20,395 bases of DNA from a virus, in IMG/VR virus record IMGVR_UViG_3300037488_001586, positions 1-20,395 of that record. One strand, 5' to 3'. The stretch's first letter is position 1, and every line of letters starts with the position of its first letter. The notes beneath the pieces are model-generated. The model made no database searches, was not told the origin of the DNA, and saw only the letters and a list, made by a program, of their open reading frames with translations. This document shows, piece by piece, positions 948 through 15,693 of the stretch. The position numbers and the translations under genes are program-made.

Positions 948-952
948 AGCTT
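947..952 (+). promoter_or_regulatory. -10 box (TAGCTT) for leaderless start at 960
   Basis: GA-TAGCTT plus seven bases (AGGGCGC) precede the ATG at 960, the same arrangement as at 543-556. No -35 box of the TGWCAG type was found. Confidence 0.5.
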
Positions 953-972
953 AGGGCGCATGAAGAAGCGCA
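951..972 (+). repeat. 22-base direct repeat, copy 2 (start of small gene B)
   Basis: Identical to 547-568. It covers the last two bases of the -10 box, the spacer and the first codons of the gene at 960. Confidence 0.9.
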
Positions 973-1193
973 GCCTACGCGGACCTGCATCGGAACACGC
1001 CCTTGAGCACGCCAGCGCGCTCACGCGCGCCGTCAACTCCGCGAAACAGGGGCGCTGTGACCTGGCGATGTACGCGCTGGGCAACGCCGCCGCGCACCGC
1101 GACTCGCTTCCGCTGCACAAGGATCACAGCAAGCAGTGGGTGAACGCCCACGCCGTGGTCATGCGGTGGTGTCGCGTCGAGCCGCGCCGCTGA
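960..1193 (+). CDS. Small helical hypothetical protein, paralogue B (77 aa)
   Basis: A 77-residue protein of unknown function, paralogous to the gene at 556: same MKKR start, then SLRG..SEH......AL...........C.......LG.A in register. Most of the chain is predicted helical with two cysteines (one near residue 33, one near the C-terminus in RWCRVEPRR). Its stop (1191-1193) lies 4 bases from the convergent polymerase stop (1198-1200). Paralogue A holds the same position beside the polymerase-tail remnant, so gene and tail were duplicated as one unit. The leaderless -10 box at 947-952 suggests it is expressed. Confidence 0.65.
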   Translation: MKKRSLRGPASEHALEHASALTRAVNSAKQGRCDLAMYALGNAAAHRDSLPLHKDHSKQWVNAHAVVMRWCRVEPRR

Positions 1194-1197
1194 TCGG

Positions 1198-4100
1198 TCA
1201 GACCTCGGCCCAGGACTTCCCGACCTTGACCTCGACGGGGAACGGGATGGTCCGCCCGTCGCGCTCGTACTCCTGGGTGAAGCACCGGATCACGTCCGCC
1301 TGGAGCGCGTCGGCGTCGTCCTCCCAGCACTCGAACACCGCCGCGTCGTGGATCTGGGCGATGGCGTAGGCTTGCTTGTAGCCATCGAGCGCGCGGTCCA
1401 TGCGCTCCATGCCGGTGTTCATGATCGACGCGGCGGCGGCTTGGACGCCAAAGTTCATCGCCTCGGTGGGCTCGACCTGCCCGAGCGGGAACGTGCGGGT
1501 GCGCCCGTACAGGAACTCGCGGATCTCGTAGGGCGGCTGGCTCGCCCGCGCGACGGTCAGGCGCTGCCACGCGACCACGCCGCTCATCTTGCCCATGAGC
1601 GAGCCCACCGCCGCCGCGATGTCCGCGAGCTTGGCCTGGGGCCGCTCCTTGACGATGGTGCGCCACAGCGTCTCGACGGAGCCGCCGTAGAACGCCCCGT
1701 ACTCTAAAGGTTTGGTCTGGTCGCGCGCCATCTTCTGCTCGTCCTTGCCCATCGTGTCGAACGACGGGAACACCACCCGCGCGCACTCGCGGTGGATGTC
1801 GAGCCCGTCCGCGAACACCTGGCACAGGAACGGGTCGCCCGAGATCAGCGCGATGATCCGCGCTTCGAGTTGCGAAAAGTCGAACCCGACGAACACGCGG
1901 CCCGGCGGGGCGACGACCTGGGCGCGCAGGTTGGGGCGCGTCCGCTTGACGAGCTTGCCCTTGGCGTCCTTGCGCCACGGGATGCCGTGGGCGTCGGTGG
2001 CGACGAACCCCGCGCCCTCGGGCGTCCACACGAGCCCCGGCGGCTCGGGGACGGTCTTCCACTTGTCCTTGGGGACGTTGGAGACGACGGGCTCGGCGGA
2101 CCCCCAGCGGCCGGTGATCTTGTGGACCGACCAGATCGGGTGGATGCGCTGCCGCGCGTCGGCGTAACCGTAGACCACGTCGCCGTCGCGCTCCTGATCG
2201 AAGATCGGCCCAACGAACGTCGCGTAGAGCTTCTCGTTCTCGCGGTACGCCAGGATGTCGCGCACCACCTTGACGTGCGTCAGTTGCTCCAGCACGTCCC
2301 GCTTCGTCGATAGCGCGCCACCACCGGACGTAGCCGTAAGCCCGGCGCCACCGGCTTGGAGCAGCGCAGCGATGTGCTTCCCGGCGGTGATCTTCCAGCG
2401 CCAGGTCTTGGTGTCAACGAGGTGTGTAAGGGCGGCAAGGCGTAGATCGTACCTCTCACGGTGCGTGTCGGGATCGCCCCGACGCTGGGTTCGCGCCTCT
2501 TCGAGCGCAAGCTGGTGGCGGATCTCCTCTTGGATCGTGGGGTCGGCGGCGGCAGCTTCGACGACCTGCTTGGCCTGGCGGATGTTGGCGAGGAACACGC
2601 GGCGTAGCTCCGCGTTGACTTCCCGGCTCACGGGCATGCCGACGAGGTGCATCTTCGTCGCGATCTCGGACATGCGCTTGTCGAGCGCGTAGACCTGCTC
2701 GGTGCGCGTGCGCTGGACGCGCAGCGTGAGCGCCGGGCGCAGCGCCCGCGTGGCGGCGGTGTCCTGCGCGTTGTAGCGCGTGAGGCGCTCGGGGCTCTCC
2801 TCGGCGTTCTTGTACGTGCTCTTCCACGGCGCGACGGCGAAGAACTGCGCCGTGACCGTCTGGAGGTTGTGCGCGCAGCCGGGGAACCCGGCGTGGTGCG
2901 CGAGCAGCGTGTCCTCCCACGGCCCCGCGAGCGCGTAGCCGTTGCCCATCAGCACGGTGCGATCGTAGAGCCCGTTGTGGTAGACCTTGGTGACGCGCTC
3001 GCTGCCGAGCACGGCTTGCAGCCGGGACAGCGCCCACGGCGGGAGCAAGTCCCACCACACCGAGATCGCCCGGCCCTGCGTCGCCAGCCCGAGCGTGCGG
3101 ATGCGCGCCATGTAGGCCATGAGCGCGTGGTGGCGCTCCGGGTCGTCCACGTAGGTTTCGAGATCGAGCGCGACCTCGCCCTCGGCCACCGCCTCGTCGA
3201 GGAGGTCCACCAGCAACTGCGCCGCACGGTCGGCGTCGGTGAACTCGACCTCGACGTTGAGCTTGAGCCACAGGTCTTGCCCCCGGCTCAGGCCATCGAC
3301 CTTGCCCGCGTCGTAGTACAGGTTGATGAACCCCAGGTCGGGCGTGTGCGCGCCCCGGATCGACGCGCCGCCGCCCGAGGTCAACGTCGCCGGGTGGATC
3401 GACGGCACGAGCGGGCGCAGCACGCCGGTCCCGTCGGCGTCCACTTCGAGGCAGGTCGAGAGCACGTTGGCGAGCTTGAAGGTCTTGGGCTTGACCTTCG
3501 CGGCCTTGCGGGCCTTCGCGGGCGTCGGGTTGGCCGTCGCGTGGGCGTCAGCGGCCAGCAGCATCCGCTGCGTGACCTTCCACTGCTGCACGGCCCAGGC
3601 GTAGGCCACTTGCGCCAGCCGGGGCTTGACCGGGCCGAAATACTCGTCGATGACGTGCGCGCGGGGTGGCTTGCGGGCGCGGAACGGCTGGCCCGGCAGG
3701 GGGCGCATCAGGCGGGCGCGGATCTGCGTGCGCTCGCGGTCGGTCAGCCACGCCAGGCGCTTGGCCGCGAGCGTGGCGGTCTGCGCGGCCTGCTTGGCCT
3801 GCGCCCGTGCGTGCGCGGCGGTCGCCTGCTCCTCGACGCGCAGCGCCTTGGCGAGCACCTTGGCCTCGGCGCGCTGGCGCTCCTTCTGGCTCCGCTTCTT
3901 GGCCTTGCTGACGTTGGGCGGGTCGATGGCTTCGATCACGTCGCGGGGGATCAACGCCTTGGCCGCGACCGCGCCCAGGCTCAACACCGGCATCTTGGGA
4001 AACTCGGCTAGCTCCTGCGCCAGCCGCCCCTTGCACGCCGCCGCCGCTCGGTGGCGCTGGGCCTCATCGGCACCCTCGGTCGCCTGGCACAGGTACGCGG

Positions 4101-4335
4101 TCGTCAGCACGATGTCGTCGCGGCGGCGCCCGACCTTGGCGAGCATCTTATCGACGAGTTGCAACGCGCCGCAGAACTGGCGGTTGGTGAACGTCTCCGT
4201 GCGCCCCGGCCCCTCACCGACCAGGATCCAGCGCGGGGCGTCGGGGATCTCCGCGAGCACGGGGCGCGCGGGCTGGCCGTCAAGGCTGAACGGGCAGTCG
4301 GCGCAGGCCGCGCCCTCGGTGGTGCCGCGCCTCAC
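1198..4335 (-). CDS. UDG-like/family A DNA polymerase fusion (1045 aa)
   Basis: A replicative DNA polymerase with three modules. (1) Residues 1-350 form a uracil-DNA-glycosylase-superfamily domain of the family 4/5 type. It has VGEGPG at 39-44, LSLG at 118-121, HPA at 324-326, and cysteines 11, 14, 83 and 101 spaced like the 4Fe-4S ligands of that family. A Lys/Ala/Arg-rich insert of about 150 residues (about 144-290) splits it. (2) Residues 385-540 are a DnaQ-like 3'-5' exonuclease: ExoI D391-x-E393, ExoII NGLYD with D458, ExoIII Y521-x3-D525. (3) Residues 550-1045 are the PolA palm: motif A D819 in FDFSQLEAR, motif B R871-x3-K875-x3-Y879-G, motif C H996-D997 followed by Ala where Glu is usual. 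No 5'-3' exonuclease is present. The GTG start at 4335 overlaps the upstream stop (GTGA), implying translational coupling. The frame stays open upstream, but that part only shadows the winged-helix gene. Confidence 0.93.
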   Translation of the reverse strand: MRRGTTEGAACADCPFSLDGQPARPVLAEIPDAPRWILVGEGPGRTETFTNRQFCGALQLVDKMLAKVGRRRDDIVLTTAYLCQATEGADEAQRHRAAAACKGRLAQELAEFPKMPVLSLGAVAAKALIPRDVIEAIDPPNVSKAKKRSQKERQRAEAKVLAKALRVEEQATAAHARAQAKQAAQTATLAAKRLAWLTDRERTQIRARLMRPLPGQPFRARKPPRAHVIDEYFGPVKPRLAQVAYAWAVQQWKVTQRMLLAADAHATANPTPAKARKAAKVKPKTFKLANVLSTCLEVDADGTGVLRPLVPSIHPATLTSGGGASIRGAHTPDLGFINLYYDAGKVDGLSRGQDLWLKLNVEVEFTDADRAAQLLVDLLDEAVAEGEVALDLETYVDDPERHHALMAYMARIRTLGLATQGRAISVWWDLLPPWALSRLQAVLGSERVTKVYHNGLYDRTVLMGNGYALAGPWEDTLLAHHAGFPGCAHNLQTVTAQFFAVAPWKSTYKNAEESPERLTRYNAQDTAATRALRPALTLRVQRTRTEQVYALDKRMSEIATKMHLVGMPVSREVNAELRRVFLANIRQAKQVVEAAAADPTIQEEIRHQLALEEARTQRRGDPDTHRERYDLRLAALTHLVDTKTWRWKITAGKHIAALLQAGGAGLTATSGGGALSTKRDVLEQLTHVKVVRDILAYRENEKLYATFVGPIFDQERDGDVVYGYADARQRIHPIWSVHKITGRWGSAEPVVSNVPKDKWKTVPEPPGLVWTPEGAGFVATDAHGIPWRKDAKGKLVKRTRPNLRAQVVAPPGRVFVGFDFSQLEARIIALISGDPFLCQVFADGLDIHRECARVVFPSFDTMGKDEQKMARDQTKPLEYGAFYGGSVETLWRTIVKERPQAKLADIAAAVGSLMGKMSGVVAWQRLTVARASQPPYEIREFLYGRTRTFPLGQVEPTEAMNFGVQAAAASIMNTGMERMDRALDGYKQAYAIAQIHDAAVFECWEDDADALQADVIRCFTQEYERDGRTIPFPVEVKVGKSWAEV
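1200..1223. repeat. 24-base direct repeat, copy 2 (genuine polymerase tail)
   Basis: Identical to 902-925. This copy lies within the functional polymerase 3' end, including the first bases of its stop codon. Confidence 0.95.
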
Positions 4336-4763
4336 GCGCGGTCGCTTTGCATGTCCAAGATCAGGTCTTCGATCTGGGTCAGCATCAGGGCGCGCTCGTG
4401 GGCCATCGACGAGCCGGGCCGCAGGTACGCATACAGGCTGCGCCCGATGTCGATCCGCAGCAGGTGGCCGCGCTGCACCAGGCGCTGGAGGTGGCGCTGG
4501 ACCGTGCGGAGGTTGCACGCGCCGTAGTCCTGGCGCACCTCCTCGACGATCGCCGCGATGTGGCGCGGGTAGGTCTGCGACACCGCCTTGGCGATGCAGT
4601 GGTCGAGCGCACGCGGGTCGCGGCGGCGCCACGGCTCCTTGACGCTCTTGGTCAGCGTCTTCGGTGCGGGCGGCGCGTGCGTGATCGCATGCGCCAGGTG
4701 TACTTCGGTGCGCTCGCACCGATCGTCACGGCAGAGCCGCGACGGATCCAGGTCCATCTCCAT
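4332..4763 (-). CDS. Winged-helix protein upstream of polymerase (143 aa)
   Basis: A 143-residue protein with a probable winged-helix DNA-binding domain at about residues 55-115. It reads IAAIVEEVRQDYGACNLRTV and then QRHLQRLVQRGHLLRIDIG: a helix-turn-helix followed by a short beta wing ending in SLYAYLR. The N-terminus holds two cysteines (C11, C16) and histidines and could bind metal, though no standard motif is complete. The start at 4763 has AGGGG six bases upstream. Its stop overlaps the GTG start of the polymerase, so the two are made from one message. It could be a regulator of the operon or a replication accessory factor; the sequence does not decide. Confidence 0.75.
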   Translation of the reverse strand: MEMDLDPSRLCRDDRCERTEVHLAHAITHAPPAPKTLTKSVKEPWRRRDPRALDHCIAKAVSQTYPRHIAAIVEEVRQDYGACNLRTVQRHLQRLVQRGHLLRIDIGRSLYAYLRPGSSMAHERALMLTQIEDLILDMQSDRA

Positions 4764-4969: not shown

Positions 4970-5470
4970 TTAGGCCCGGCGGACAGCGCCAGCGGCGGGC
5001 TTACGCATCGCCGGGGGCGGCGGGGGCGGCGCCTCGACGAGGTCGAGCGGACGCTCGTTGGCGACCTTGAGGAAGGTGCGCGACGGCAGCGGCTGGCCGT
5101 TCCCGCCGATGGTCGCCTGGCCCTCCTCGTGGAACACGCTGATCTGGATCCGCGCGCCCATCAGGTCCGAGCCCTTGATGCGGGCGAAGTCGGCCATGCC
5201 GGTCGCGAGGCAGAGCCGCTTGAAGCGGCCGACCGCCGTATCCTTGAGCGAGTAGATGCCCTTGAGCGTCTGGCCCGCGTGGTCGCCATCGACGACGCTG
5301 AAGTCCACGTCGATCTTCGGGTTCTGCGTCTTCGAGGTGCCGCGCACCACGTTGGTGATGTCCACGACGTAGTCGCCGGGCGGCACGGCGGGAAGCTGGT
5401 TGCCGGTACCGGCCCAGTCCTGCACGTTGGTAAGGTCGATGTCGAGGTCGAAGTCATTGAACTGAGACAT
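4970..5470 (-). CDS. DUF669-like phage single-stranded DNA-binding protein (166 aa)
   Basis: A 166-residue protein whose layout matches the DUF669 phage proteins that bind single-stranded DNA beside Sak4-type ATPases. Residues 28-130 form a beta-rich core (GDYVVDITNV, then NPKIDVDFSVVDGDHAGQTL), with the typical FKRLCLATGMADF helix and LMGARIQISV strand. The C-terminus is a Pro-rich hinge and a short basic tail (APPPPPPAMRKPAAG) rather than the acidic tip of bacterial SSB. It follows the Sak4 gene in the same direction but has its own promoter (5517-5539) and a leader of about 40 bases with only a weak purine-rich ribosome site. This would allow higher expression than the upstream genes. Confidence 0.75.
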   Translation of the reverse strand: MSQFNDFDLDIDLTNVQDWAGTGNQLPAVPPGDYVVDITNVVRGTSKTQNPKIDVDFSVVDGDHAGQTLKGIYSLKDTAVGRFKRLCLATGMADFARIKGSDLMGARIQISVFHEEGQATIGGNGQPLPSRTFLKVANERPLDLVEAPPPPPPAMRKPAAGAVRRA

Positions 5471-5516: not shown

Positions 5517-5539
5517 ACCCTACACCGAGGGTCTGTCAA
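5517..5539 (-). promoter_or_regulatory. TTGACAG-N10-TAGGGT promoter for the ssDNA-binding gene
   Basis: On the minus strand TTGACAG (5539-5533), ten bases, then TAGGGT (5522-5517). The -35 overlaps the TGA stop of the upstream ATPase gene. It includes a perfect inverted repeat, CAGACCCT-N6-AGGGTCTG (5514-5535 region), that could be an operator or a weak terminator for the ATPase gene. Unlike most promoters here it makes a leader of about 40 bases. Confidence 0.65.
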
Positions 5540-6387
5540 AGCGGCTTGGCGGGTGCGGCGGGCACCACGCGGCGGGGCGGGGCGAGCATCGGCGCACGCG
5601 CGACGACGGGCGCCCGCACGGGCGCGACCGGCGGCACGGGCTTGCCGCGCACGGCGTCGATGTCGTAGCCGAGGGCGTCGAGCAGGGTCGCGTAGGTGCC
5701 CACGAGCGGGTCGGGCAGGCTCGCCGCCAGGGCGCCCAGCCGGTTGCCCGCGATGTAGTTCATGAACTTGCGCGTGCGGACCTGGAACTGCATCGGCAGC
5801 AACTCCTGCCCACGCTTCTCCTGGTGCGTCCGCGCGTGGAACACGTAGTGAACGCCCGCCATGAACTTCGCGGCCTGCTGACCGGGGATCATGGGACCGC
5901 CCATCGGGTCGTCTTCCGACGGGTGCTTGGTGAGCGCGAGCCACACGATGTTGCAGCCCAGGCCGTGCATCTGCACGCGCAGGTCGCGCAGGTGGTTGCC
6001 GAGGGTGCCGTAGACCTGGCGCATGTCGGGCTTGCCCTGGAGCCGCAGCAACGACGCCAGGTACAGGTCGGTGTAGAACGTCAGGCTGTCGATCACGATC
6101 GTCTTGACGCGGCCCTGCGCGATCAGCGGCGCGGCCTTCGCCATCGCCTCGGCCATGTCGGTCATGGTTTCGATCGCCCACACCAGCGGCTTGACGCCCG
6201 GCTCGAACAGCCCGTCCTCGGGCGGGTTCATCAGCGAGTCCCAGCCGCCCTCGGTGGCGTCGGACAGGAACAGCGGACGCGGGAACGAGCCCGCGAAGGT
6301 GGTCTTCCCCGAACGGCTATCCCCGTAGATCAGGAACGTGTTGGTGGGGGCAGCGTCGGGGGGAGGGTCGAGGTTGATCTCTCTCAT
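5536..6387 (-). CDS. Sak4/RecA-like recombinase ATPase (283 aa)
   Basis: A phage recombination ATPase of the Sak4/AAA_24 type, expected to promote single-strand annealing or strand exchange with an SSB partner. The Walker A motif GDSRSGKT is at residues 22-29 and Walker B VKTIVIDS at 94-101. The chain continues with the usual core (NHLRDLRVQMHGLGCNIVWL then ALTKHP) and ends in an Ala/Pro/Val-rich tail from about 250 to 283. The ATG at 6387 has TAGGAA just upstream, where the TAG is the stop of the zinc-ribbon gene. Stop and ribosome site therefore overlap and translation is probably coupled. The adjacent DUF669 ssDNA-binding gene supports the assignment, since Sak4 proteins commonly sit beside their SSB. 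Confidence 0.85.
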   Translation of the reverse strand: MREINLDPPPDAAPTNTFLIYGDSRSGKTTFAGSFPRPLFLSDATEGGWDSLMNPPEDGLFEPGVKPLVWAIETMTDMAEAMAKAAPLIAQGRVKTIVIDSLTFYTDLYLASLLRLQGKPDMRQVYGTLGNHLRDLRVQMHGLGCNIVWLALTKHPSEDDPMGGPMIPGQQAAKFMAGVHYVFHARTHQEKRGQELLPMQFQVRTRKFMNYIAGNRLGALAASLPDPLVGTYATLLDALGYDIDAVRGKPVPPVAPVRAPVVARAPMLAPPRRVVPAAPAKPL

Positions 6388-6394
6388 GGGGTTC

Positions 6395-6616
6395 CTAGCG
6401 GGTGCGGGTGGGGACGGTCAGGTTCCACGCGCACCGCGTACAGCGCGCGTACTTCCGAGGTTCACGAACGATCGCGCCGTTGCAGACCGGGCAGCGCCTG
6501 GGCTGACGCCCGCGCCCGACCGGGACGACGTGGGCGGGGTGCAGCCCGAGGGTCTGGCACCGCTCCTCACGGCACGGCATGAAGGCGGGGTCAGCGAGCA
6601 GATCGAAGAACAGCAC
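6395..6616 (-). CDS. Small zinc-ribbon protein (73 aa)
   Basis: A 73-residue protein with a clear zinc-ribbon: CPVC at residues 42-45 and CTRC at 59-62, with a further C15/C20 pair and a basic stretch around 35-56. The GTG start at 6616 is inferred from the promoter at 6627-6649, whose -10 ends ten bases before it. The frame is open much further upstream, but that part would overlap the small gene at 6652-6813 and the promoter. It lies just before the Sak4 ATPase, with the stop inside that gene's ribosome site. A role in nucleic-acid binding or in the recombination machinery is plausible but inferred from the ribbon and context only. Confidence 0.65.
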   Translation of the reverse strand: MLFFDLLADPAFMPCREERCQTLGLHPAHVVPVGRGRQPRRCPVCNGAIVREPRKYARCTRCAWNLTVPTRTR

Positions 6617-6626
6617 GACGCCGCTG

Positions 6627-6649
6627 ACGCTACCACCAGGGTCTGACAC
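6627..6649 (-). promoter_or_regulatory. GTGTCAG-N10-TAGCGT promoter for zinc-ribbon/Sak4 genes
   Basis: On the minus strand GTGTCAG (6649-6643), ten bases starting ACCC, then TAGCGT (6632-6627). It starts just past the stop of the small gene at 6652-6813 and precedes the GTG at 6616 by ten bases. The form and spacing match the promoters at 9548-9570 and 12378-12400. Confidence 0.65.
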
Positions 6650-6651
6650 GG

Positions 6652-6813
6652 CTACAGGTCGTGGTCGTCGAGGCGCTCGCGCTGCGCCTTGGCGGCGGCG
6701 AGCAGGCGCTCCAGCACCTCGAAGGCGGTGTGCGCGAGCACGGTGGCGGACCCGACGAAGGTCAGGCTCTGCTCGGCGTCGGTGATGGCGAGGTCGATCT
6801 CTGTATCGGTCAC
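6652..6813 (-). CDS. Small acidic helical protein (53 aa)
   Basis: A 53-residue protein starting at GTG 6813, with an excellent ribosome site (AAAGGA six bases upstream). It reads MTDTEIDLAITDAEQSL, then a helix rich in Ala, Leu, Glu and Arg ending in RERLDDHDL. The composition suggests a single long helix or helical hairpin, possibly dimeric. No family recognised. It lies between the 149-residue protein (stop at 6841) and the promoter for the zinc-ribbon gene, so it is the last gene of the upstream operon. Confidence 0.65.
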   Translation of the reverse strand: MTDTEIDLAITDAEQSLTFVGSATVLAHTAFEVLERLLAAAKAQRERLDDHDL

Positions 6814-6840
6814 AGCACGTTCCTTTCGGTGAGAGCTTGG

Positions 6841-7290
6841 TCACGGTGCGTCGCTTGGGGTTGCACATGGCACCACGATGGCTTCGCCGCGCAACCTGGC
6901 GGCAACCATCGCGCGATCGGCGGGGCTCAGGGCATCGTACAGCCTCGGCAGATGGTCAGCTTCACCCGTCCATCCACCCCATGCGTCGATGCGGTCCTTC
7001 ATGGCTAGGTAGCACGCAACCGCCACGGTGATCCGCCACGAAGGGGCGTGCATCGCAAGCTCGATCTGCGACGGGTCCGCGAACGCGGCACGCGCCAACC
7101 CGAAGCTGCGATCGTGCTCATCCCACTTGATGGGCAACCCACCCGTCACGACCACGTCGTACCTGATCTGATCTGCGACGGCCTCGGCCCTGTTCACCGC
7201 CAGGCTAGCTCGCGTGAACAGCAGCCAGCCGCCGTTGCTCAGTTCGGAAACGAGCACAGACTCGTCGCCGGGATCCCAGGTCACCTTCAT
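6841..7290 (-). CDS. Hypothetical protein (149 aa)
   Basis: A 149-residue soluble protein without a recognised family. The N-terminus (MKVTWDPGDESVLVSELSNG then GWLLFTRASL) looks beta-rich. The middle carries helices (ELAMHAPSWRITVAVACYLA), and DALSPADRAMVAARLRGEA forms another near the C-terminus. There is no signal peptide or clear membrane span. The ATG overlaps the stop of the coiled-coil gene upstream (ATGA), so translation is coupled. Codon use resembles the neighbouring replication genes. Its place in the operon suggests an accessory role, but nothing in the sequence defines it. Confidence 0.7.
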   Translation of the reverse strand: MKVTWDPGDESVLVSELSNGGWLLFTRASLAVNRAEAVADQIRYDVVVTGGLPIKWDEHDRSFGLARAAFADPSQIELAMHAPSWRITVAVACYLAMKDRIDAWGGWTGEADHLPRLYDALSPADRAMVAARLRGEAIVVPCATPSDAP

Positions 7291-7898
7291 CGCCAGCCCC
7301 GCTCGTCGAGCAGCAATCGCAGCCGCTCGACCTCGGCGCGGGCGGCGTCGCGCTCGGCGTCACGCTCTTGGACGAGCAGCCGCAGGGCCTCGCGCTCTTG
7401 GATCAGCCGGACCTGCTCGGCAGCCAGGAAGTCCCGGTCCGCCTGCATCGCGTCGCGCACACGCAGGAACTCGTAGGCCCGCTGGAACAGCGGCGTCAAC
7501 GCGGCCCGTGCCGCCGCCTGGGCCTGATCCCGCGCCACGCGCGCCTCGTCGCGCTCCGCAACGAGCAGCCGCACCGCCTCGATCAGGTCGCCGTTGCTCT
7601 CGGGCTCGCACCGCATGAGCACGGCGATGCGATCGAACGCGCCCTCAAGCTCGATGACGCGCGCCAAAAACGACTGGTTACGCAAGGCCAGGCGTGCCAC
7701 GGCGAGCGCAGCCTCGGCCTCGACCAACAGCTTGCGCGTCGCGAGGTGCTCGCGGGCCTCGGTTTCCGCGAGGCGCTGCCACTCGTCGGCCCGCGCGTTC
7801 GTCGGGCACAAGACGAACTCGTCCACGTCGCAGCGGGTACGCCCCTCGGTGGGCGCGACGACGGTCAAGCGGATGCCGGTATCGAAGGGGTTGGGCAT
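7287..7898 (-). CDS. Coiled-coil protein (203 aa)
   Basis: A 203-residue protein dominated by coiled coil. From about residue 37 to the end it is almost continuous heptad-like helix (Leu/Ala/Val spaced among Glu, Arg and Asp), with a short break near residues 85-105 that contains a Cys and a Pro. The first 35 residues are non-helical. The start at 7898 has GAGG four bases upstream and overlaps the last 34 bases of the Mom-like gene. The stop overlaps the next ATG. A structural, scaffold or oligomerisation role is likely, but no family is recognised. Confidence 0.7.
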   Translation of the reverse strand: MPNPFDTGIRLTVVAPTEGRTRCDVDEFVLCPTNARADEWQRLAETEAREHLATRKLLVEAEAALAVARLALRNQSFLARVIELEGAFDRIAVLMRCEPESNGDLIEAVRLLVAERDEARVARDQAQAAARAALTPLFQRAYEFLRVRDAMQADRDFLAAEQVRLIQEREALRLLVQERDAERDAARAEVERLRLLLDERGWR

Positions 7899-8512
7899 GA
7901 AACCTCAGACGGTGAAGGGTGGTGGATCTGACGCTCAGGGCTCGCCCACCATCGCAGAAACTCGCGACGAGCCGTAGACGATAGCGGGAGGCAATAACGA
8001 AGACGCCCAGGCTGTTTCGTCTCCGTATACCCGGCTGCGAGAATCTGCGCTTTGGTCATGCAGACCCCCCCGGAGTGAAACTTTCGACGGCTTACTACGG
8101 TGCCGTCAGCAGATCGGTAGTACCGCGACTCTTCGACCTGACCGCAGGCCAACCACGAAGCAGCCCGGTAAACAAACCCCGCATGGCCGACATTGGGGTC
8201 AGCGTAGGACACGAGCCCCCAGACCCCTGGCTCGCGTTGCTTTAACGCCCGCACCGAACGTGAGATGGCGCGCGTTAGCAGGTTCCTTTCATGCCCATCC
8301 GGTGCCCACAGGCGTGACAATTCCCAAACATTTCGCTTAACCCCGAAAAGAAACTTCCCGACGAATTGGTTTGCGGGAATCGAAAACACTACCAAGGCGT
8401 CGCCGTGCCTGAAATAGTGTGACTTTCCCGATGGTACGGAGTGCGTGTAGTGTGACGTGCGAATGGTCGCTATCGCGGCTGTCCGCTCGGGGCCGAGAAG
8501 TTCAGTTGCCAT
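7865..8512 (-). CDS. Mom-like DNA modification protein (215 aa)
   Basis: A 215-residue protein resembling the phage Mu Mom family, GNAT-fold enzymes that convert adenine in phage DNA to a carbamoylmethyl-type base and protect it from restriction. Family-type segments are NVWELSRLWAPDGHERNLLT (61-80), LVSYADPNVGHAGFVYRAAS (100-119) with W120 next, and a C-terminal core ending RLRYCLPL (171-178). The last 30 residues are not typical of the family and overlap the next gene. The ATG has AAGGGAG a few bases upstream and follows the nuclease stop by 15 bases. Base composition is unlike the neighbours: by hand count 61 of 120 bases in 8281-8400 are G or C, far below the surrounding genes, suggesting separate acquisition. 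A generic GNAT acetyltransferase is the main alternative. Confidence 0.72.
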   Translation of the reverse strand: MATELLGPERTAAIATIRTSHYTHSVPSGKSHYFRHGDALVVFSIPANQFVGKFLFGVKRNVWELSRLWAPDGHERNLLTRAISRSVRALKQREPGVWGLVSYADPNVGHAGFVYRAASWLACGQVEESRYYRSADGTVVSRRKFHSGGVCMTKAQILAAGYTETKQPGRLRYCLPLSSTARREFLRWWASPERQIHHPSPSEVSCPTPSIPASA

Positions 8513-8527
8513 TAATCAAGGCTCCCT

Positions 8528-9541
8528 TCAGGACTCGCCCGTGGCGCAGTGATCGAAGTGCGGGCACCGACCATAGCGGCCGATGCACCCGTTGCGGGCG
8601 CGCGGGAACGAGCCGGTCGAGCGCGCGAGTTGGATCAGCCCCTCCCAGCGGGCGAGGTCGTCGCGGTGCGCGGTGACCTGTGCCGTCGTGGGCTTGACCC
8701 ACACGCGCTGGTACTGGGGGTTCTTGGGTTGCTTGCCGAGGAGGTTGATCAGCACGCCCTGGAGCGGCCCAAAGAACAGGTCGAGCCTGAGCTTGTGCCA
8801 GAGCATGACCTGGCCGATGACCTCGCCGTCGTTGGCCCACCCTTCGAGGGTGTCGCCGTCGAACCGGCTCGCGCTCTTGTGCTCGACGATGTACGTCCCG
8901 GCGGGGCGCCCGTGGGCGCTGTCGGGAAAGTGGGCGATCAGGTCGTAGCGGCACGATTCACCCGTGCGCGGATCGACGAGATCGTGCTCGACCGCGAGCG
9001 GGGTCAGCACGTCGTGCGTGTAGTGCAGGCGGTAGCCGTCGAACACGCGCCAGGCCGTGTCGAGGAAGGTCGGGTTGCACCCGGCGGCGCGCAGCGCCTG
9101 ATCGACGCCCTCGGGCGTCAGCGGGTACGCCGGGTCGATCAGGCGCTGGTAGGTGACGGCCAGGTAGGTGTGCAGGAGCGTGCCGACCGCGAGGGCGGGC
9201 GACTCCATCACCGCGCCGGGCGTGGCGGGCGTGACGTACCGCCGCTGCCAGGCGTAGGGGCATCGCTGGAACAGGGCGAAGCTCGACCAGCCGCGCCCGG
9301 TCGATTGTCCGCCCAGCCGGGGCACGCCCGCAGCGGCGAACACCTCGGGCAGGGCGGCATCGACGGGCGCGAAGACGGACAGCAGGAACGCCTGCGCCAG
9401 GGGAGCCTCGGGGACCGGCGCATCGACGGCGATGCCGTAGCTGTCGGTCGCCTTGACGTTGCAGTAGGCGACCTGGGGGTGCGCGAAGCGGCCCGCCGCC
9501 GCCGGGGTCAGCGGGTCGCCGCACAAGAAACAAGCAGGCAT
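8528..9541 (-). CDS. Cas4/RecB-like Fe-S PD-(D/E)XK nuclease (337 aa)
   Basis: A 337-residue nuclease of the PD-(D/E)XK superfamily with a Cas4/AddB-type iron-sulfur cluster, expected to resect DNA ends in recombination-linked replication. Motifs: SSFALFQRCPYAWQRRYV (86-103) with C94, H124 in GTLLH, D200 in CRYDLI, E220-H-K222 in YIVEHKS, and Q244 in VIGQVMLW. The C-terminal cluster cysteines are C319, C326 and C332 (RCPHFDHC). The N-terminus carries an extra possible metal site (C4, C7, C27) not usual for the family. The ATG at 9541 lies six bases after the -10 of promoter 9548-9570, so the message is predicted to be leaderless. The gene heads an operon that continues with the Mom-like gene. 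Confidence 0.87.
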   Translation of the reverse strand: MPACFLCGDPLTPAAAGRFAHPQVAYCNVKATDSYGIAVDAPVPEAPLAQAFLLSVFAPVDAALPEVFAAAGVPRLGGQSTGRGWSSFALFQRCPYAWQRRYVTPATPGAVMESPALAVGTLLHTYLAVTYQRLIDPAYPLTPEGVDQALRAAGCNPTFLDTAWRVFDGYRLHYTHDVLTPLAVEHDLVDPRTGESCRYDLIAHFPDSAHGRPAGTYIVEHKSASRFDGDTLEGWANDGEVIGQVMLWHKLRLDLFFGPLQGVLINLLGKQPKNPQYQRVWVKPTTAQVTAHRDDLARWEGLIQLARSTGSFPRARNGCIGRYGRCPHFDHCATGES

Positions 9542-9547
9542 GCGGCG

Positions 9548-9570
9548 ACCCTACCAAGAGGGTCTGACAA
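9548..9570 (-). promoter_or_regulatory. TTGTCAG-N10-TAGGGT promoter, leaderless start at 9541
   Basis: On the minus strand TTGTCAG (9570-9564), ten bases, then TAGGGT (9553-9548), six bases, then the ATG. The -35 and spacing match the published mycobacterial form TTGTCRGTG-N8-TANNNT except for AC in place of TG. GACCCT-N6-AGGGTC within it forms a perfect inverted repeat. Confidence 0.75.
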
Positions 9571-9576
9571 CCGACG

Positions 9577-9762
9577 CTAGCGTGCGGCGCCCAGGTGCGT
9601 GCGGCAGGACTTCACGTTGTGGCCGAGCCCGTGGCACGCGCCGCAACGGTACATGCGCCGCGACGACGGGGGCCGGGGCGTGACCGCCGGTTGCACGCCC
9701 CGATAGATCACGCCCGCGAGCACGTACCACGAGGATCGGATCTTCAGGTGAGCCAAGCGCAC
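9577..9762 (-). CDS. Zinc-knuckle protein (61 aa)
   Basis: A 61-residue protein with a canonical CCHC zinc knuckle near its C-terminus: C40-x2-C43-x4-H48-x4-C53. This is the spacing of retroviral nucleocapsid knuckles, which bind single-stranded nucleic acid. The N-terminal 36 residues are basic and carry no domain I recognise. The start is taken as GTG 9762, 17 bases past the helicase stop. No strong ribosome site is seen, and a later in-frame GTG is possible. It is probably co-transcribed with the helicase. A helper that brings the helicase or nuclease to single-stranded DNA would fit, but this is inference. Confidence 0.65.
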   Translation of the reverse strand: MRLAHLKIRSSWYVLAGVIYRGVQPAVTPRPPSSRRMYRCGACHGLGHNVKSCRTHLGAAR

Positions 9763-9779
9763 AGCCCGGCATCGTAGGG

Positions 9780-12371
9780 CTAGTCGTCGAGCAACGCAGC
9801 AAGAAGCCGATCCATGTCGGGCGTTTCGACGGGGCCGCGCAACGCCTCCTGAAGCACGGAGATCGCCCCGGCGGCGGACTCCAGGCTCAGGGGCAACGTG
9901 GCGTCCAGCTTCTTGACCAGCGCCAACACGACGCGCTGATCGACCATGTGGTCGGCCACGACGTAGGTGACGTTCATCGGGCGGGTGGGCGCGAACGTCC
10001 GCATCTCGGCCTGCGCCATCGTCGCGGGGGTGTAGTCACACTCCGCGAAGATCGCGAGGCGCGCGTGGGAGAAATCGAGGCCGACCTGCGCCACCGCCAT
10101 CGTGCAGACCAGCGCCGACGCGGGCGCGTCGCCGCGCCAGGCGTCCACGAGCTGATCCCGCGTGCGCGGTGGCACCTCGCCGGTCAGCAGGCGTGCGCGG
10201 TCGCCTAGCTCGGCGGCGAGGGCGTTGGCGAGGGCGACGTGCCAGGTCCACACGACCACGGGCTCGCCCCGGTCGAGCATCGTGCGCGCCTCGGTGACCG
10301 TGGTGGCGAGCTTGAGCATGCTGGTGTGCTCGCGGTAACGCGCGAGCAGGCCGATGGTGCTGCCCTTGCCGTCGCTGATCGCGGTCGCGGCCACGTCAAG
10401 CTGGCGCCGGGTCTTGGTGTCGATGGCGGTCAGGATCACGTTGCGGGAGATCGGGGGCAGGCCCGCCTGCACGTCCGCCCAGCGGCGCCGGATCATGACC
10501 TCCGCGAGCCGCGCGCGTAGCTCGTGCTCGTTGGAGATGCCGGTGTACACCGTGCCGTAGGCGGTGGGCTCGGGGTTGCCGTACCGCTGCGCGAACTCGT
10601 GGAAGCTCCCCCAGGCCCCTGGCGCGATCAGGCCCAGGACCGACCACAGCCCCGGCGGCATGTTCCAGATCGGCGTGCCCGTCGCCGCGATCACGCGGTG
10701 CGCGCGGTTGGCGACCAGCACCGCCGCCATCGTGCGCCGGGTGCGCGGGTTCGCGAGCCAGTGAGCCTCGTCGAAGACCACGGTGCCGAACGGTCGCGCC
10801 GTCTCCCAGAACGGCAGGATGTCGTAGTGGCCGACGATCAACGGCTGCTGCACTTGCGTCGCGTCGAACTTCCGGCCCATCATGATCCCGACGGGGACGC
10901 CTGGGAACACGCGCGCGAGCCAGCCGATCCACACCGAGCGGACCATCGCCGGGCAGATGACGAGCAGCGGCCCCGTCGCGGGATCATGACTTATGATGGC
11001 TGAGAGCGTGTTGTGCGTGACGAGACAGTGCTCGACGACGTAAAGCTGGTCGGGCGCGCTCACCGAGATGCAGGTGGCCGGGGCGGTGCCCTCGGGTTCG
11101 ATGCTGCGGATGATGCGCGCCGGATGAAACTTCGCGCGAGACACCCACCCCTGGCGTGCGCGAAACGGGGATATCCCCGGCGGCATGTTGATGGTCAGGC
11201 GCCAGCTTGGGCGCCCCGTGCGCTGCTCGCCCAGGTAGGTGTACTTGGGCGTGGCCCGATACCCTGCGCGCACCGACCCCCCAAAACTCTCAACGAGGAA
11301 CTTGACGGCTTGCACCAAAGCCTCGGACGAGGACGAAAATTGAAGAAGTTGACTGGCCTTGGCTTGGCACCGGGCGGATAGTTCGCCGTCGGTGTCCATC
11401 AACCCCTGAAGCAGCGCGAGCCGTTGCGCCGGGCTCGCGAACAGGTACGCTTCGGGGACGAATTTCTCCCAACTGCGCTTGCCCATCAAGCCGAGCCCGC
11501 GCAACGCGGTGAGCACAGGATTGCTGGGGTGGGTCAAACCCGCGATGCTCCACGCCGTCGCCTTGGCCCCTACGACCGCCCCGCGTGTCAACCGCACGCC
11601 CGGTGGCAACACCTTGGCGACCTCGGCGGGCACGACCTCGTCGCCGGGCACGAATTGCACGCTGTTCGAGAGCGCGCCATCCCCGAGCAACACCCCCAAC
11701 AGGTACGGGTCGAGCGGTAGCGCACGTTCGGGGAACGCGATGGGCTCGACCAGCGGGATCCGCCACTTCCGGTTGAGCGTGGCCCGCAGATGCGCGGTAT
11801 TGACGACCTCGTGAGGCTTACCTCGATGAAAGTTGTTGTGGGTCCACGCGGCCCAGAGGTGCTCGCCATCGACGACGGTGCTGGTGCCGTCCGAGAACGT
11901 CACGCGAAACATGGGCAGCTCGCCACGCGGGAACACGCCCGTAATGTTGCAGGGCTGGCCGTTCGCGCCGATGACTTGGTCACCGACGACGAGATCCTCG
12001 ACAGGGCACCATCCCGTCGGTGTCAAGATGGGTGTCCCGTGGCGGTTCGCTTTGCCCACGCGCATGTCGTCGCCCAGGAGCGTGCCCCGGCGGCGCGTGA
12101 TGAAGTCCACCGCCGCGTGCTGCGCGGGGCGCAACGTGAACCCCCGGTCGCGCGTCGCCGCGTCGCGTCGCGCCCAGTCGTGAGGTACCGGATGCAGGAG
12201 GTGGCGCGCGGCGTCGGGGTGCTCGGGGAGCAGGGGCAGGTGGCTCTGGTGCAAGGTCACGATCCCGCCCGTACCCAACGTCAGCCCCGGCACCTTGCCC
12301 GCGATGGCCTGGAGTTCGCCCAGCGGGGCGGTGTACCAGCCGGGACGGTGCGACAGCGCGGCGATGCTCAC
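9780..12371 (-). CDS. SNF2-like superfamily 2 helicase interrupted by an intein (863 aa precursor)
   Basis: A phage SF2 DNA helicase/translocase of the SNF2-like type. The P-loop (GDDMRVGK then T, residues 100-107 plus T455) is split by an intein at 108-454. After splicing the helicase is about 516 residues. Remaining motifs: DEAH at about 534-537, ATGTP (motif III) at about 563-567, GLDFSHA (motif V), and AQAEMRTFAPTRP (motif VI) near 786-798, where SNF2 enzymes have QAxxRxxRxGQ. The N-terminal 75 residues carry no domain I recognise. I start at the GTG at 12371 rather than 12377, because it lies six bases after the -10 of promoter 12378-12400, while 12377 abuts the -10. The gene heads the replication operon, divergent from the D5-like ATPase. 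Confidence 0.88.
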   Translation of the reverse strand: MSIAALSHRPGWYTAPLGELQAIAGKVPGLTLGTGGIVTLHQSHLPLLPEHPDAARHLLHPVPHDWARRDAATRDRGFTLRPAQHAAVDFITRRRGTLLGDDMRVGKANRHGTPILTPTGWCPVEDLVVGDQVIGANGQPCNITGVFPRGELPMFRVTFSDGTSTVVDGEHLWAAWTHNNFHRGKPHEVVNTAHLRATLNRKWRIPLVEPIAFPERALPLDPYLLGVLLGDGALSNSVQFVPGDEVVPAEVAKVLPPGVRLTRGAVVGAKATAWSIAGLTHPSNPVLTALRGLGLMGKRSWEKFVPEAYLFASPAQRLALLQGLMDTDGELSARCQAKASQLLQFSSSSEALVQAVKFLVESFGGSVRAGYRATPKYTYLGEQRTGRPSWRLTINMPPGISPFRARQGWVSRAKFHPARIIRSIEPEGTAPATCISVSAPDQLYVVEHCLVTHNTLSAIISHDPATGPLLVICPAMVRSVWIGWLARVFPGVPVGIMMGRKFDATQVQQPLIVGHYDILPFWETARPFGTVVFDEAHWLANPRTRRTMAAVLVANRAHRVIAATGTPIWNMPPGLWSVLGLIAPGAWGSFHEFAQRYGNPEPTAYGTVYTGISNEHELRARLAEVMIRRRWADVQAGLPPISRNVILTAIDTKTRRQLDVAATAISDGKGSTIGLLARYREHTSMLKLATTVTEARTMLDRGEPVVVWTWHVALANALAAELGDRARLLTGEVPPRTRDQLVDAWRGDAPASALVCTMAVAQVGLDFSHARLAIFAECDYTPATMAQAEMRTFAPTRPMNVTYVVADHMVDQRVVLALVKKLDATLPLSLESAAGAISVLQEALRGPVETPDMDRLLAALLDD
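11010..12050 (-). mobile_element. Class 3 intein with LAGLIDADG endonuclease (347 aa) in helicase P-loop
   Basis: An in-frame intein inserted between Lys and Thr of the Walker A motif. It begins with Ala, not Cys or Ser (ANRHGTPILTPTGWCPVEDL), and has the features of class 3 inteins: Trp in block B (DGEHLW), Cys in block F (VVEHCL) and Thr in block G (VTHN), followed by Thr as +1 residue. Splicing would start from the block F Cys. A two-motif LAGLIDADG homing endonuclease lies between the splicing blocks: LLGVLLGDG and LLQGLMDTDG. Because the P-loop is unbroken only after splicing, helicase activity depends on it. Class 3 inteins are often found in phage and DnaB-type ATPases. Confidence 0.9.
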
Positions 12372-12377
12372 GGGCAC

Positions 12378-12400
12378 ACCCTACCAGCGGGGCCTGACAG
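12378..12400 (-). promoter_or_regulatory. CTGTCAG-N10-TAGGGT promoter for helicase operon
   Basis: On the minus strand CTGTCAG (12400-12394), ten bases beginning GCCCC, TAGGGT (12383-12378), six bases, then GTG at 12371. The seven -35 bases are shared with the divergent promoter 12394-12416, because CTGTCAG on one strand reads CTGACAG on the other. Confidence 0.75.
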
Positions 12401-12416
12401 ACCCGCGTGCTAGCGT
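12394..12416 (+). promoter_or_regulatory. CTGACAG-N10-TAGCGT promoter for D5-like ATPase
   Basis: CTGACAG (12394-12400), ten bases beginning ACCC, TAGCGT (12411-12416), nine bases, then the ATG at 12426. It is back to back with the helicase promoter and uses the same -35 base pairs, so both probably cannot be occupied at once. Confidence 0.7.
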
Positions 12417-12425
12417 GCCGCGCTC

Positions 12426-14030
12426 ATGCTCGTCTCGCCCGACGTATGCGCCATCCACCGCCTACGGATCTCGTCGATCGTGCGGGCCAAGGTGAAGGGG
12501 AAGAGCCCGCGCGATACCGCGCTCGACGTGTGGACGTACATCCTCAAGGCCGAGACAAAGATGGGCACGGCGTTCTTGCACACCGCCGACGGCACGCTCT
12601 ACGCCTACCTGGGCGCGACCCGCCAACTCGTCACGTTCCCCAACACCGTGCGCGAGGCCGAGCAACTGGTCGCCTACGTCACCCAGGTCTACGGCATCAC
12701 GTTCACGGACACGTTCGGGCGGTACATCTTTGATAGCTTTCGGAACTACGCCCTGGCGCACGCGATCGAGAACGACCCCCGGCGGTTCGCGGTCTATGAC
12801 GTGCGGGCGCACGTCGGCTACCTGACGAACTACCAGGGCCGCATGTGGCGGCTCGACGGCGGCACGCCGATGCTCGTCGATAACGGCACCGACGACGTGT
12901 TCTTCATCAACGATGACGGCGGCGTCTCGTGCGAGCCGCAGATCCGCCACCACGGGATCTTGCTCGACCTGCTCACCGACCTGAACTTCGCGGAGAGCGG
13001 GCTGTCGGGCATGACGCCCGAGGCCCAACGCCAGGCGATGATCGTGTGGTTGTTCGCGCTCGCGTTCCCCGACCTGATGCCGACCAAGCCGCTGCTGATC
13101 TTGGAGGGGACGCAAGGGTCGGGCAAGTCGGCGGCGGTGGCGCTGATGCAGCTTGCGCTCATGGGCGTGTCCAAGCCGATGATCCTCCAGCGCAACAAGG
13201 AAGATGACTTCGGCGTGATCCTGCTGCGGTCGCCGCTCGCGGTGTTCGACAACACGGACAGCTACATCGAGTGGGTGCCGGATGCCGTGTGCGCGTACAC
13301 CACCAGCGGGCAGTGGGTGAAGCGCAAGCTCTACTCCAACAGCGAGGAGGTGGTGATCAAGCCGCACGCCTTCATCGCCGTGGCGTCGAAGAACCCCGCC
13401 TCGTTCCGGCGCGAGGACGTGGCCGATCGCTGCCTGATCATGCGCCTGGAGCGCCGCGCGAACTTCACGGCGTTCGAGACGTTGCGCCAGGACGTGCTCG
13501 CCCAGCGTGAGGCGCTGCTGGGCGAGTACCTGTGGTACGTCAACCAGATCATCGCCTACATGCGAACGCACGGCGACGTGATGGAGCGTAACGAGACGGC
13601 GCGCATGGCCGACTACGCGCGGTTCGCGCGGGCGGTGAGCGCCGTGCTCGGGTGGCCTGCCACCACGATCGACGACCTGATGGCGTCGATCGCGCACGAG
13701 CGGGACACGTTCATCAACGAGGACGACCCGCTGGTGCAGTTGCTGGAGCACTGGGTCAAGAAGAACGCCCGCCGCCCGGTCACGGTGCAGAAGCTGTTCA
13801 GCGACCTGGACGCGCTCGCGCCGATGCTGGGCGCGACGTTCTACAAGTCGCCCCGCGTGCTCGCGCAGAAGGTCCGGTCACCCCACGTCGAGCGCGCCTT
13901 CAAGGTCAAGATGACGATCCGCGAGGGCCAGAAATACTACGAGTTTGAACCGCTCAACGCCTTGACCGTCGTGGACGGTGGGGCCGAGCCCGGTGCCGCC
14001 TACGAGCCGCCGCTGCTCGAACTGGTCTAG
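12426..14030 (+). CDS. D5-like (SF3-type) primase/helicase ATPase (534 aa)
   Basis: A 534-residue phage replication ATPase related to the D5/SF3 helicase proteins, probably the replicative helicase or helicase-primase partner of the polymerase. The ATPase core has Walker A GTQGSGKS (228-235), Walker B AVFDN (272-276), the following hydrophobic and Thr/Ser-rich stretch (VCAYTTSGQWVKRKLYSN), and arginine-finger candidates R335 and R340 (DVADRCLIMRLE). The N-terminal 200 residues lack recognisable archaeo-eukaryotic primase or TOPRIM motifs, so primase activity is not shown. The C-terminal 100 residues resemble a DNA-binding helical domain. It is transcribed away from the helicase operon from a shared promoter region. 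Its stop overlaps the stop of the convergent gene 14027-14401. Confidence 0.85.
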   Translation: MLVSPDVCAIHRLRISSIVRAKVKGKSPRDTALDVWTYILKAETKMGTAFLHTADGTLYAYLGATRQLVTFPNTVREAEQLVAYVTQVYGITFTDTFGRYIFDSFRNYALAHAIENDPRRFAVYDVRAHVGYLTNYQGRMWRLDGGTPMLVDNGTDDVFFINDDGGVSCEPQIRHHGILLDLLTDLNFAESGLSGMTPEAQRQAMIVWLFALAFPDLMPTKPLLILEGTQGSGKSAAVALMQLALMGVSKPMILQRNKEDDFGVILLRSPLAVFDNTDSYIEWVPDAVCAYTTSGQWVKRKLYSNSEEVVIKPHAFIAVASKNPASFRREDVADRCLIMRLERRANFTAFETLRQDVLAQREALLGEYLWYVNQIIAYMRTHGDVMERNETARMADYARFARAVSAVLGWPATTIDDLMASIAHERDTFINEDDPLVQLLEHWVKKNARRPVTVQKLFSDLDALAPMLGATFYKSPRVLAQKVRSPHVERAFKVKMTIREGQKYYEFEPLNALTVVDGGAEPGAAYEPPLLELV

Positions 14031-14401
14031 CGACGCAGGACGAGGTACGCCGCGATCAGCCCGCCGCCGATCACGAGCTTGGTCTTGTGCTTGGCGAAGA
14101 AGCCCTGCTCCGCGCCGCCGTCGCCGCCGCCGCCGCCGCCCTCGCCCTCGCCCTCGCCGCCACCACACGTCGGCGGCGGGGTGTTCGCGTCACACCGCGC
14201 CTTCGCCTCGACGATGTCCCTGGCCCCGCCGCACCGCGCCTGAAGGTGCGCCTTGAGGCACATATCATAGGCCGTCAGCTTCAGCATCACCTTGCCGGGG
14301 TCACGGCTCACCTGAAACCCACCGTCCTCGCCTTGCTGGCGCACCTGCGGGTTCACGTTCTGCATCATGGCGGGGTTCAGCCCAAGGCCGTAGAGGAGCA
14401 T
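14027..14401 (-). CDS. Gly-rich-linker protein with C-terminal membrane anchor (124 aa)
   Basis: A 124-residue protein with four cysteines in residues 48-79 (YDMCLKAHLQARCGG ... ARCD ... TCGGG), then a Gly/Glu linker at about 80-96, then a C-terminal hydrophobic segment of about 15 residues (LVIGGGLIAAYLVL) and two terminal arginines. This suggests a short tail anchor in the membrane, with the Cys domain on the other side of the linker. The same layout occurs in the unrelated protein at 16202-17050. The start is leaderless (TACGCT, seven bases, ATG). Its stop overlaps the D5-like ATPase stop. Function unknown; a virion membrane, host-envelope or lysis-related role is possible. Confidence 0.7.
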   Translation of the reverse strand: MLLYGLGLNPAMMQNVNPQVRQQGEDGGFQVSRDPGKVMLKLTAYDMCLKAHLQARCGGARDIVEAKARCDANTPPPTCGGGEGEGEGGGGGGDGGAEQGFFAKHKTKLVIGGGLIAAYLVLRR

Positions 14402-14408
14402 GCCCTGG

Positions 14409-14414
14409 AGCGTA
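14409..14414 (-). promoter_or_regulatory. -10 box (TACGCT) for leaderless start at 14401
   Basis: On the minus strand GG-TACGCT, seven bases, then ATG. No -35 box at the ten-base spacing was found; the TGWCAG box here (14418-14424) serves the opposite strand. Confidence 0.45.
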
Positions 14415-14417
14415 CCA

Positions 14418-14440
14418 CTGTCAGACCCACCGTGTAGAAG
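14418..14440 (+). promoter_or_regulatory. CTGTCAG-N10-TAGAAG promoter, leaderless start at 14448
   Basis: CTGTCAG (14418-14424), ten bases beginning ACCC, TAGAAG (14435-14440), seven bases (TTAGGGC), then GTG at 14448. The last base of the -10 is G, not T; otherwise it fits the set. Confidence 0.65.
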
Positions 14441-15306: not shown

Positions 15307-15693
15307 ATGATCGATGCAACCGACCTGCCCGTGCTGACCCGCCTGCCCGAGGCGCTCGCGCCCACGCCCATCCCGCCGGAAACGACCATCACGTTGCCCT
15401 CGGGGGAGGTCATGCCGCTGCGTGATATTTACGATCCGCGTGACGCCCCGCCCGAGGCTAACGATGAAGCCGACGAGGCCGCGTTCAACGACGTTGTCGC
15501 CTACCTCGTCGCCCTCACCGAGGGGCTGGCGCACACGCTCGTGCTGCACTCGGAGGCGCTCAACCAGATCCTGCACGGGCTGACGGGGCCGGTCGCGCGT
15601 GCGCTGCAACGCAAGCCGAAGCCCAAGGCCAAGGCCAAGGTCAAGGCCAAGGCCAAGCCCAAGGCCAAGCCGCGCAAGCGGGCGAGGCGGTGA
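15307..15693 (+). CDS. Protein with histone-H1-like Lys/Ala/Pro tail (128 aa)
   Basis: A 128-residue protein with an acidic, Pro-rich N-terminal half (residues 1-58, including EANDEADEAAF), a helical middle (59-100, DVVAYLVALTEGLAHTLVLH), and a strongly basic tail (about 103-128: KPKPKAKAKVKAKAKPKAKP then RKRARR). The tail resembles bacterial histone-H1-like proteins, which bind DNA without sequence preference, and is encoded by a hexamer repeat (15613-15672). It starts two bases after the previous stop. A DNA-compacting or membrane-tethering partner of the next gene is possible, but function is not established. Confidence 0.7.
   Translation: MIDATDLPVLTRLPEALAPTPIPPETTITLPSGEVMPLRDIYDPRDAPPEANDEADEAAFNDVVAYLVALTEGLAHTLVLHSEALNQILHGLTGPVARALQRKPKPKAKAKVKAKAKPKAKPRKRARR
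15613..15672 (+). repeat. Ten tandem six-base units encoding Lys-(Ala/Pro/Val)
   Basis: Ten consecutive hexamers, each starting AAG, mostly AAGGCC with AAGCCC, AAGCCG and AAGGTC variants. They keep the reading frame and give a K-P/A/V dipeptide repeat. Such arrays can vary in number by slippage. Confidence 0.85.

Follow-up and report, generated by a model that had tools for sequence, protein, structure and literature searches.

The window analysed here, a viral contig of 20,395 bp with approximately 68% GC, carries a replication module and raises the question of which factor switches the genes of this module on. The initial annotation had listed six sites of the type TGWCAG-N10-TANNNT at these genes and proposed that a DNA damage activator of the host fires them. 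The main genes of the module are the following:

1198..4719, minus strand, UDG-PolA fusion polymerase at the end of the module (PF03167, PF01612, PF00476)
4970..5470, minus strand, SSB-like protein (PHROG 7778/378, Pfam DUF669), predicted controlled gene
5536..6387, minus strand, Sak4-like recombinase (PHROG 124, 3.9e-26), downstream of the promoter at 6627
8528..9541, minus strand, PD-(D/E)XK nuclease (PHROG 1218, PF12705), predicted controlled gene
9780..12371, minus strand, SNF2-type helicase with intein (PHROG 62; SNF2, Helicase_C, Hint, LAGLIDADG), predicted controlled gene
12426..14030, plus strand, D5/primase-like protein (PHROG 47, weak at 4e-4, but adjoining the helicase in relatives too), predicted controlled gene

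The polymerase combines a UDG at the N-terminus, a 3'-5' exonuclease and PolA in one chain, and this fusion is also present in the relatives L001-L008. In the relative L279 an intein similar to that of the helicase was found within the D5 gene instead, and in L326 a similar segment at 9787-10665, which suggests that the intein has moved between genes. Inside the replication module, a Mom-like DNA modification protein (PF25680) is encoded at 7865-8512 (minus strand). A GH25 lysin is encoded farther out, and the protein encoded at 15307-15693 (plus strand) ends in a lysine/alanine/proline-rich, histone H1-like tail.

The promoter candidates of the window, with their scores in a weight matrix described below, are:

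5517..5538, minus strand, TGACAG-ACCCTCGGTG-TAGGGT, upstream of the SSB-like gene (ATG 5470); exact match, 17.0 bits
6627..6648, minus strand, TGTCAG-ACCCTGGTGG-TAGCGT, upstream of a 73-aa gene (6395-6616) and, behind it, Sak4; exact match, 27.3 bits
9548..9569, minus strand, TGTCAG-ACCCTCTTGG-TAGGGT, 6 nt to the nuclease ATG 9541, predicted leaderless; exact match, 30.2 bits
12378..12399, minus strand, TGTCAG-GCCCCGCTGG-TAGGGT, 6 nt to the helicase GTG 12371, predicted leaderless; exact match, 22.9 bits
12395..12416, plus strand, TGACAG-ACCCGCGTGC-TAGCGT, 9 nt to the D5-like ATG 12426; exact match, 17.3 bits
14419..14440, plus strand, TGTCAG-ACCCACCGTG-TAGAAG, 7 nt to GTG 14448; -10 without the final T, 14.9 bits
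18039..18060, minus strand, TGACAG-ACCCTCGAAG-TACACT, doubtful seventh site, wholly coding; exact match, 11.3 bits

Five of the six sites listed initially fit the pattern exactly, while the sixth, on the plus strand at 14419-14440, deviates in its -10 (TAGAAG); the exact match at 18039-18060, the weakest by the matrix (11.3 bits), had been left out. The assignment of sites to the helicase, nuclease, SSB and D5 genes could be retained. Sak4, also named at first as a controlled gene, has no site of its own, since the site at 6627 lies before the 73-aa gene and Sak4 comes after this gene. Directly before the UDG-PolA polymerase, no promoter of this type was found in the window.

The six exact matches compare with 0.07 expected from dinucleotide shuffles, and none of 100 shuffles reached six. 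TGWCAG on its own is not enriched (10 occurrences in the window, 15 expected), and thus the signal is the composite with the -10. A weight matrix was trained on 88 sites from other phages, with no window sequence included, and the window was then scanned with it. Its seven best matches are the seven sites (30.2, 27.3, 22.9, 17.3, 17.0, 14.9 and 11.3 bits), and the eighth-best score is 2.2 bits. First-order random sequences gave a mean peak of 4.4 bits, a maximum of 12.5 bits in 40 trials and 0.05 matches above 10 bits.

Six of the seven sites are located at gene or operon starts, for the most part those of replication genes. Four contain no coding bases, one contains three and one shares bases with the end of a small, hypothetical ORF, so that the only fully genic site is that at 18039, although just 12% of the window is noncoding. 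The motif is therefore not evenly distributed over coding sequence, a distribution that would have spoken against the initial proposal. The copy at 18039-18060 is antisense to a plus strand gene near its 3' end and may be an antisense promoter or a chance match. Only 6-9 nt separate the -10 from the start codon at 9548, 12378, 12395 and 14419, and transcripts from these four sites are therefore predicted to be leaderless or nearly so; at 6627 the distance is 10 nt.

The core is TGTCAG at 6627, 9548, 12378 and 14419 and the one-base variant TGACAG at 5517, 12395 and 18039. The spacing of 10 bases between the core and TANNNT is exact in six sites and is kept at 14419 with TAGAAG. No TTGACA-like -35 hexamer approximately 17 bp before the -10 was seen when the sequences of the window sites were read by eye; a TTTGACA at 5517 is located 11 bp from its -10. 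Similarly, no LexA box was seen by eye in the promoter regions of the window and its relatives. Two divergent pairs of sites share a palindromic CTGWCAG, the promoters of the D5-like and helicase genes having the core CTGACAG in common. The inverted repeat ACCCT-N6-AGGGT is present in some sites only; as an essential element it was rejected, since most sites lack it.

This architecture resembles the mycobacterial P1 promoter, whose consensus tTGTCRgtg-8 nt-TannnT (PMC5656591) can be read as TGTCRG, ten bases and TANNNT, and the identity of the spacing, pointed out in the initial annotation, holds. Like the sites of the window, P1 lacks a -35 and is found before repair and recombination genes. 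They differ in the bases after the core, which are TG in mycobacteria but AC or GC in every site of the window, with ACCC as the phage form, so that strictly taken the sites are not of the mycobacterial form. They further differ in the extended -10 (TGN), which is common in the phage arrays described below, and in that the phage sites serve phage genes.

To find out whether the set recurs, relatives of the window were compared, eight of which were obtained by a search with the polymerase and a ninth contig, L064 (in its whole length L325), by a search with the motif. Searches in the named phage collection yielded no close relative of the window, and a Sak4 search of viral contigs gave no matches. 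The order D5, divergent helicase, nuclease, small gene, Sak4, SSB and polymerase is kept in the better-covered relatives. In L323, L324 and L325 the motif is found again upstream of the nuclease gene and in the interval that separates D5 from the helicase, in L279 it precedes the nuclease gene, and in L323 and L325 the SSB gene is preceded by a site with TAGAAC as its -10. The D5 promoter is identical at 22 of 22 positions between the window and L323/L324, while the D5 protein itself is 53% identical. In the more distant relatives L002 and L003, sites are absent at the corresponding places. The promoter set is real and recurs at matching places in relatives.

The same promoter is carried by many other uncultured phages, in which the full element reads TGTCAGACCC-N3-TGN-TANNNT and occurs in arrays with as many as 26 promoters. 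Scans of viral contigs revealed 26 copies within 9 kb in L014 and at least 10 in several other phages. In 118 phage loci we counted 692 sites of the element and 11 of the reversed pattern; these loci were chosen for having at least one site, so that the evidence lies in the multiplicity and not in the first match, and 105 of the 118 have at least two. The sites are largely on one strand, and 75% of them are intergenic, compared to 39% of random positions. Most of the 118 loci have a GC content of 35-40%, and thus the element is no by-product of high GC. A profile of 97 sites has the form AA-TGTCAGACCC-N3-TGN-TANNNT with a conserved A approximately 7 nt past the -10, where the transcription start is expected. 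Since the copies come with a -10 and a start signal at fixed places, they do not correspond to the spread, untied copies of a stoperator array.

In cellular genomes, the phage form of the motif was found directly upstream of DNA repair genes, in line with the initial suggestion that host genomes be scanned for the pattern. A scan for TGTCAGACCCC-N2-TGN-TAGNNT in one genome per species (84,980 species) gave 40 matches, mostly in Actinomycetota and in Myxococcota or 'Deltaproteobacteria'. The genes right behind them, as judged by eye, include radA, recN, ssb, rpsF, an imuA-like gene and genes for uracil-DNA glycosylase, helicase, RecB-like nucleases and 13E12-type proteins; in one locus (L106), the -10 is directly followed by an inverted repeat that is similar to the LexA box of actinobacteria. 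The pattern TGTCAGACCC-N6-TANNNT occurs 290 times in 146 Myxococcota genomes (4 reversed) and 110 times in 296 Actinomycetota genomes (3 reversed), whereas 150 Pseudomonadota genomes show no enrichment (4 versus 6 reversed); these phylum totals were summed by hand and include a few genomes that had first been reached by a motif match. Behind the sites of this second sample are recA, ssb, recN, uvrA, radA, sbcD, ligA, dnaN, rmuC and comM/yifB, and further genes for an AlkZ-like glycosylase, dGTPase, DUF222-HNH proteins and pup. Domain searches confirmed most of the genes named here, while the genes behind other host sites are unrelated to DNA repair or unrecognisable. The promoter set of the window is thus a conserved one of the host damage type, identical to promoters of host repair genes.

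Several observations in the host genomes deserve mention. In a Streptomyces-like genome (L309:583-828) the motif is located before pup, which encodes the tag of the Pup-proteasome system; this system is genetically linked to PafBC. In many Myxococcota (L293:517-1197, L243, L244, L296, L297) it precedes a gene whose 227-aa product (VSVNKLG...) is of unknown family, a candidate new damage-response gene. In many Myxococcus-like genomes (L247, L250-L254, L292, L298) a protein of approximately 365 aa with a von Willebrand factor A domain is encoded behind it.

The published properties of PafBC make it a candidate for the reader of the sites. According to PMC11804915, PafB binds the -26 motif, PafC contacts domain 4 of SigA, and activation needs ssDNA in the WYL domains. 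The HTH_PafC domain scored above the cut-off in 113 of the 146 Myxococcota and 191 of the 296 Actinomycetota genomes. In Myxococcota, the motif is present in 72 of 113 PafC-positive but only in 1 of 33 PafC-negative genomes (p=1.2e-10), and in Actinomycetota in 37 of 191 versus 3 of 105 (p=2.6e-5); these counts were read by hand from tables, and the p values are without control for genome size. Nearly all motif-bearing genomes are therefore PafC-positive, but the converse does not hold, since many PafC-positive genomes, especially in Actinomycetota, are without the exact motif. The Myxococcota encode a tandem pair with WYL, WCX and HTH_PafC domains, which matches the PafBC structures with 4e-43 (PafC) and 9e-21 (PafB). 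In phages, any WYL domain was found in only one of 34 records, several of which are fragments. Thus, the check for a PafBC-like WYL regulator, also suggested at the outset, showed that the motif tracks PafC across genomes and that WYL is nearly absent from the phages, which makes an activator of the host more likely. The one exception is a stand-alone WYL protein of 77 aa (L330:1498-1728) in the relative G007, in which the motif is present as well; this protein could modulate the host activator. The co-occurrence with PafC applies to the phyla compared; the host of the window may belong to the actinomycetes or to the myxobacteria. A search for Sak4 in 195 Myxococcota genomes gave no match, an empty answer that says little about the host. 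PafBC as the reader is supported by this correlation between genomes, which is not proof.

Based on these data, we consider it quite probable that the replication genes of the phage are under host DNA damage promoters of the TGTCAGACCC form, read by a PafBC-type activator of the host, as had been proposed initially; the sequence checks support this proposal, and we infer ssDNA or damage induction during infection. At promoters without a -35, the -26 element TGTCAGACCC would be read instead by the host's PafBC-type WYL activator, which would hold the housekeeping RNA polymerase on the -10, often of the extended form TGN-TANNNT. Single-stranded DNA from phage entry, replication and recombination would activate PafBC, and active PafBC would fire the SSB, Sak4, nuclease, helicase and D5 genes. 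More replication would then yield more ssDNA and stronger expression in a self-reinforcing loop, which basal PafBC activity could start. It is an evenly balanced matter whether a large group of phages, most of them uncultured, uses the ssDNA-activated activator of the host as its standard switch for early genes and depends on PafBC; these phages would infect Actinomycetota and perhaps Myxococcota, and as many as 26 repair promoters in a single phage would convert the ssDNA signal of infection into early transcription.

Other readers of the sites have to be weighed. An activator or sigma factor encoded by the phage, with the likeness to host promoters due to mimicry or chance, appears unlikely. 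Phages commonly have their own transcription factors, the Microbacterium phages of cluster EC for example a sigma factor (PMC7302621), and, compared with host sites, those of phages are tighter and occur in larger numbers. However, hundreds of bacterial genomes have the element before repair genes, it is common to unrelated phages, the only WYL domain in the 34 phage records is that of the mini-protein, and the 10-bp gap is too short for a -35/-10 reading by a sigma factor. Still less probable is a general strong host promoter without a -35, which is not damage-specific and which the phages use for its strength. Promoters with an extended -10 but no clear -35 are frequent in Actinomycetota, which counts for this explanation, as does the fact that some genes behind host sites are not repair genes; but the host genomes with the exact element hold few copies (1-14 in most, at most 26), and prominent among the genes behind these copies are those of repair, recombination and replication.

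We give the least credit to the explanation that the sites are stoperator-like operators, at which a repressor from either a temperate phage or the host would bind. The distance to a -10 and a start signal is constant for nearly all sites, the window ORFs scanned (a subset of all ORFs) include no recognisable integrase or repressor, and host copies precede inducible repair genes. The repeat ACCCT-N6-AGGGT, which together with the palindromic CTGWCAG of the two divergent pairs and the one intragenic site would suit an operator, is absent from most sites. A promoter set read by a host activator of the PafBC type thus is the reading that we prefer.

The use of host damage sensing by phages is already known for LexA, as exemplified by GIL01 (PMC4551915), whose genes are likewise placed under DNA damage sensing of the host. 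There, a LexA repressor is removed by RecA, whereas here an ssDNA-activated activator would act on replication and early lytic genes. New with respect to the searched literature are the PafBC-type promoter in phages and its ACCC form: neither phage use of such a promoter nor the ACCC form in Myxococcota or Actinomycetota was found there, subscription papers being thinly covered, and the titles listed for the string TGTCAGACCC are unrelated. If the proposal is true, these would be, within that literature, the first phages to time their genes by an ssDNA-activated WYL activator of the PafBC type and not by LexA, with an element that is common among environmental phages. The element also makes it simple to pick out, by sequence, phages with hosts that may rely on a PafBC-type response.

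For the hosts, the motif offers a concrete DNA element in two cases. In Myxococcus xanthus, the regulators of the LexA-independent damage response that includes DdiA are 'yet to be identified' (PMC12288472), and in Streptomyces an initial search did not turn up the mycobacterial PafBC motif (PMC9380542). Several Myxococcus-like genomes encode an XRE regulator resembling DdiA behind a TGTCAGACCC promoter, a likeness that rests on family, size and genus and not on comparison with MXAN_0633. These ddiA-like genes share the promoter with the phages, but DdiA belongs to a host system.

Among the named phages, the consensus query gave a single match, in Microbacterium phage Savannah, with E=4, which is not significant alone. 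It falls in the 53-bp gap between the exonuclease gene and erf and scores 29.0 bits by the matrix; a second site with the core TGTCCG, just before the exonuclease gene, scores 13.2 bits. The conservation of a 71-bp stretch here extends to some 50 records of Microbacterium phages, and cultured Microbacterium phages of the Quhwah/Savannah group bear the element upstream of erf. No convincing site was found in Myxococcus phage Mx8 or in the part of the genome of Microbacterium phage Triscuit that was scanned. The identities of a PstS-like protein of phage G012 to the actinobacterial proteins that it matched are just 28-38%, and the host of G012 is not fixed thereby. Microbacterium foliorum and the phages of the Quhwah group are a laboratory pair in which the idea is testable now.

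According to PMC7302621, the cluster EC phages are lytic and have a RecET-like pair besides the phage sigma factor; the text of that paper contains neither the word "promoter" nor any TGTC sequence. Their 18-bp repeat (PMC7302621) and the start-associated sequences of actinophages resemble the present element as short repeats just before many small early genes, but they differ from it in sequence, and the present element is shared with promoters of host repair genes. In the window, two different small genes at approximately 540-570 and 940-973 (plus strand) both open with TTAGGGCGCATGAAGAAGCGC after a TANNNT-like sequence, and this stretch is possibly a second promoter or a start-associated repeat.
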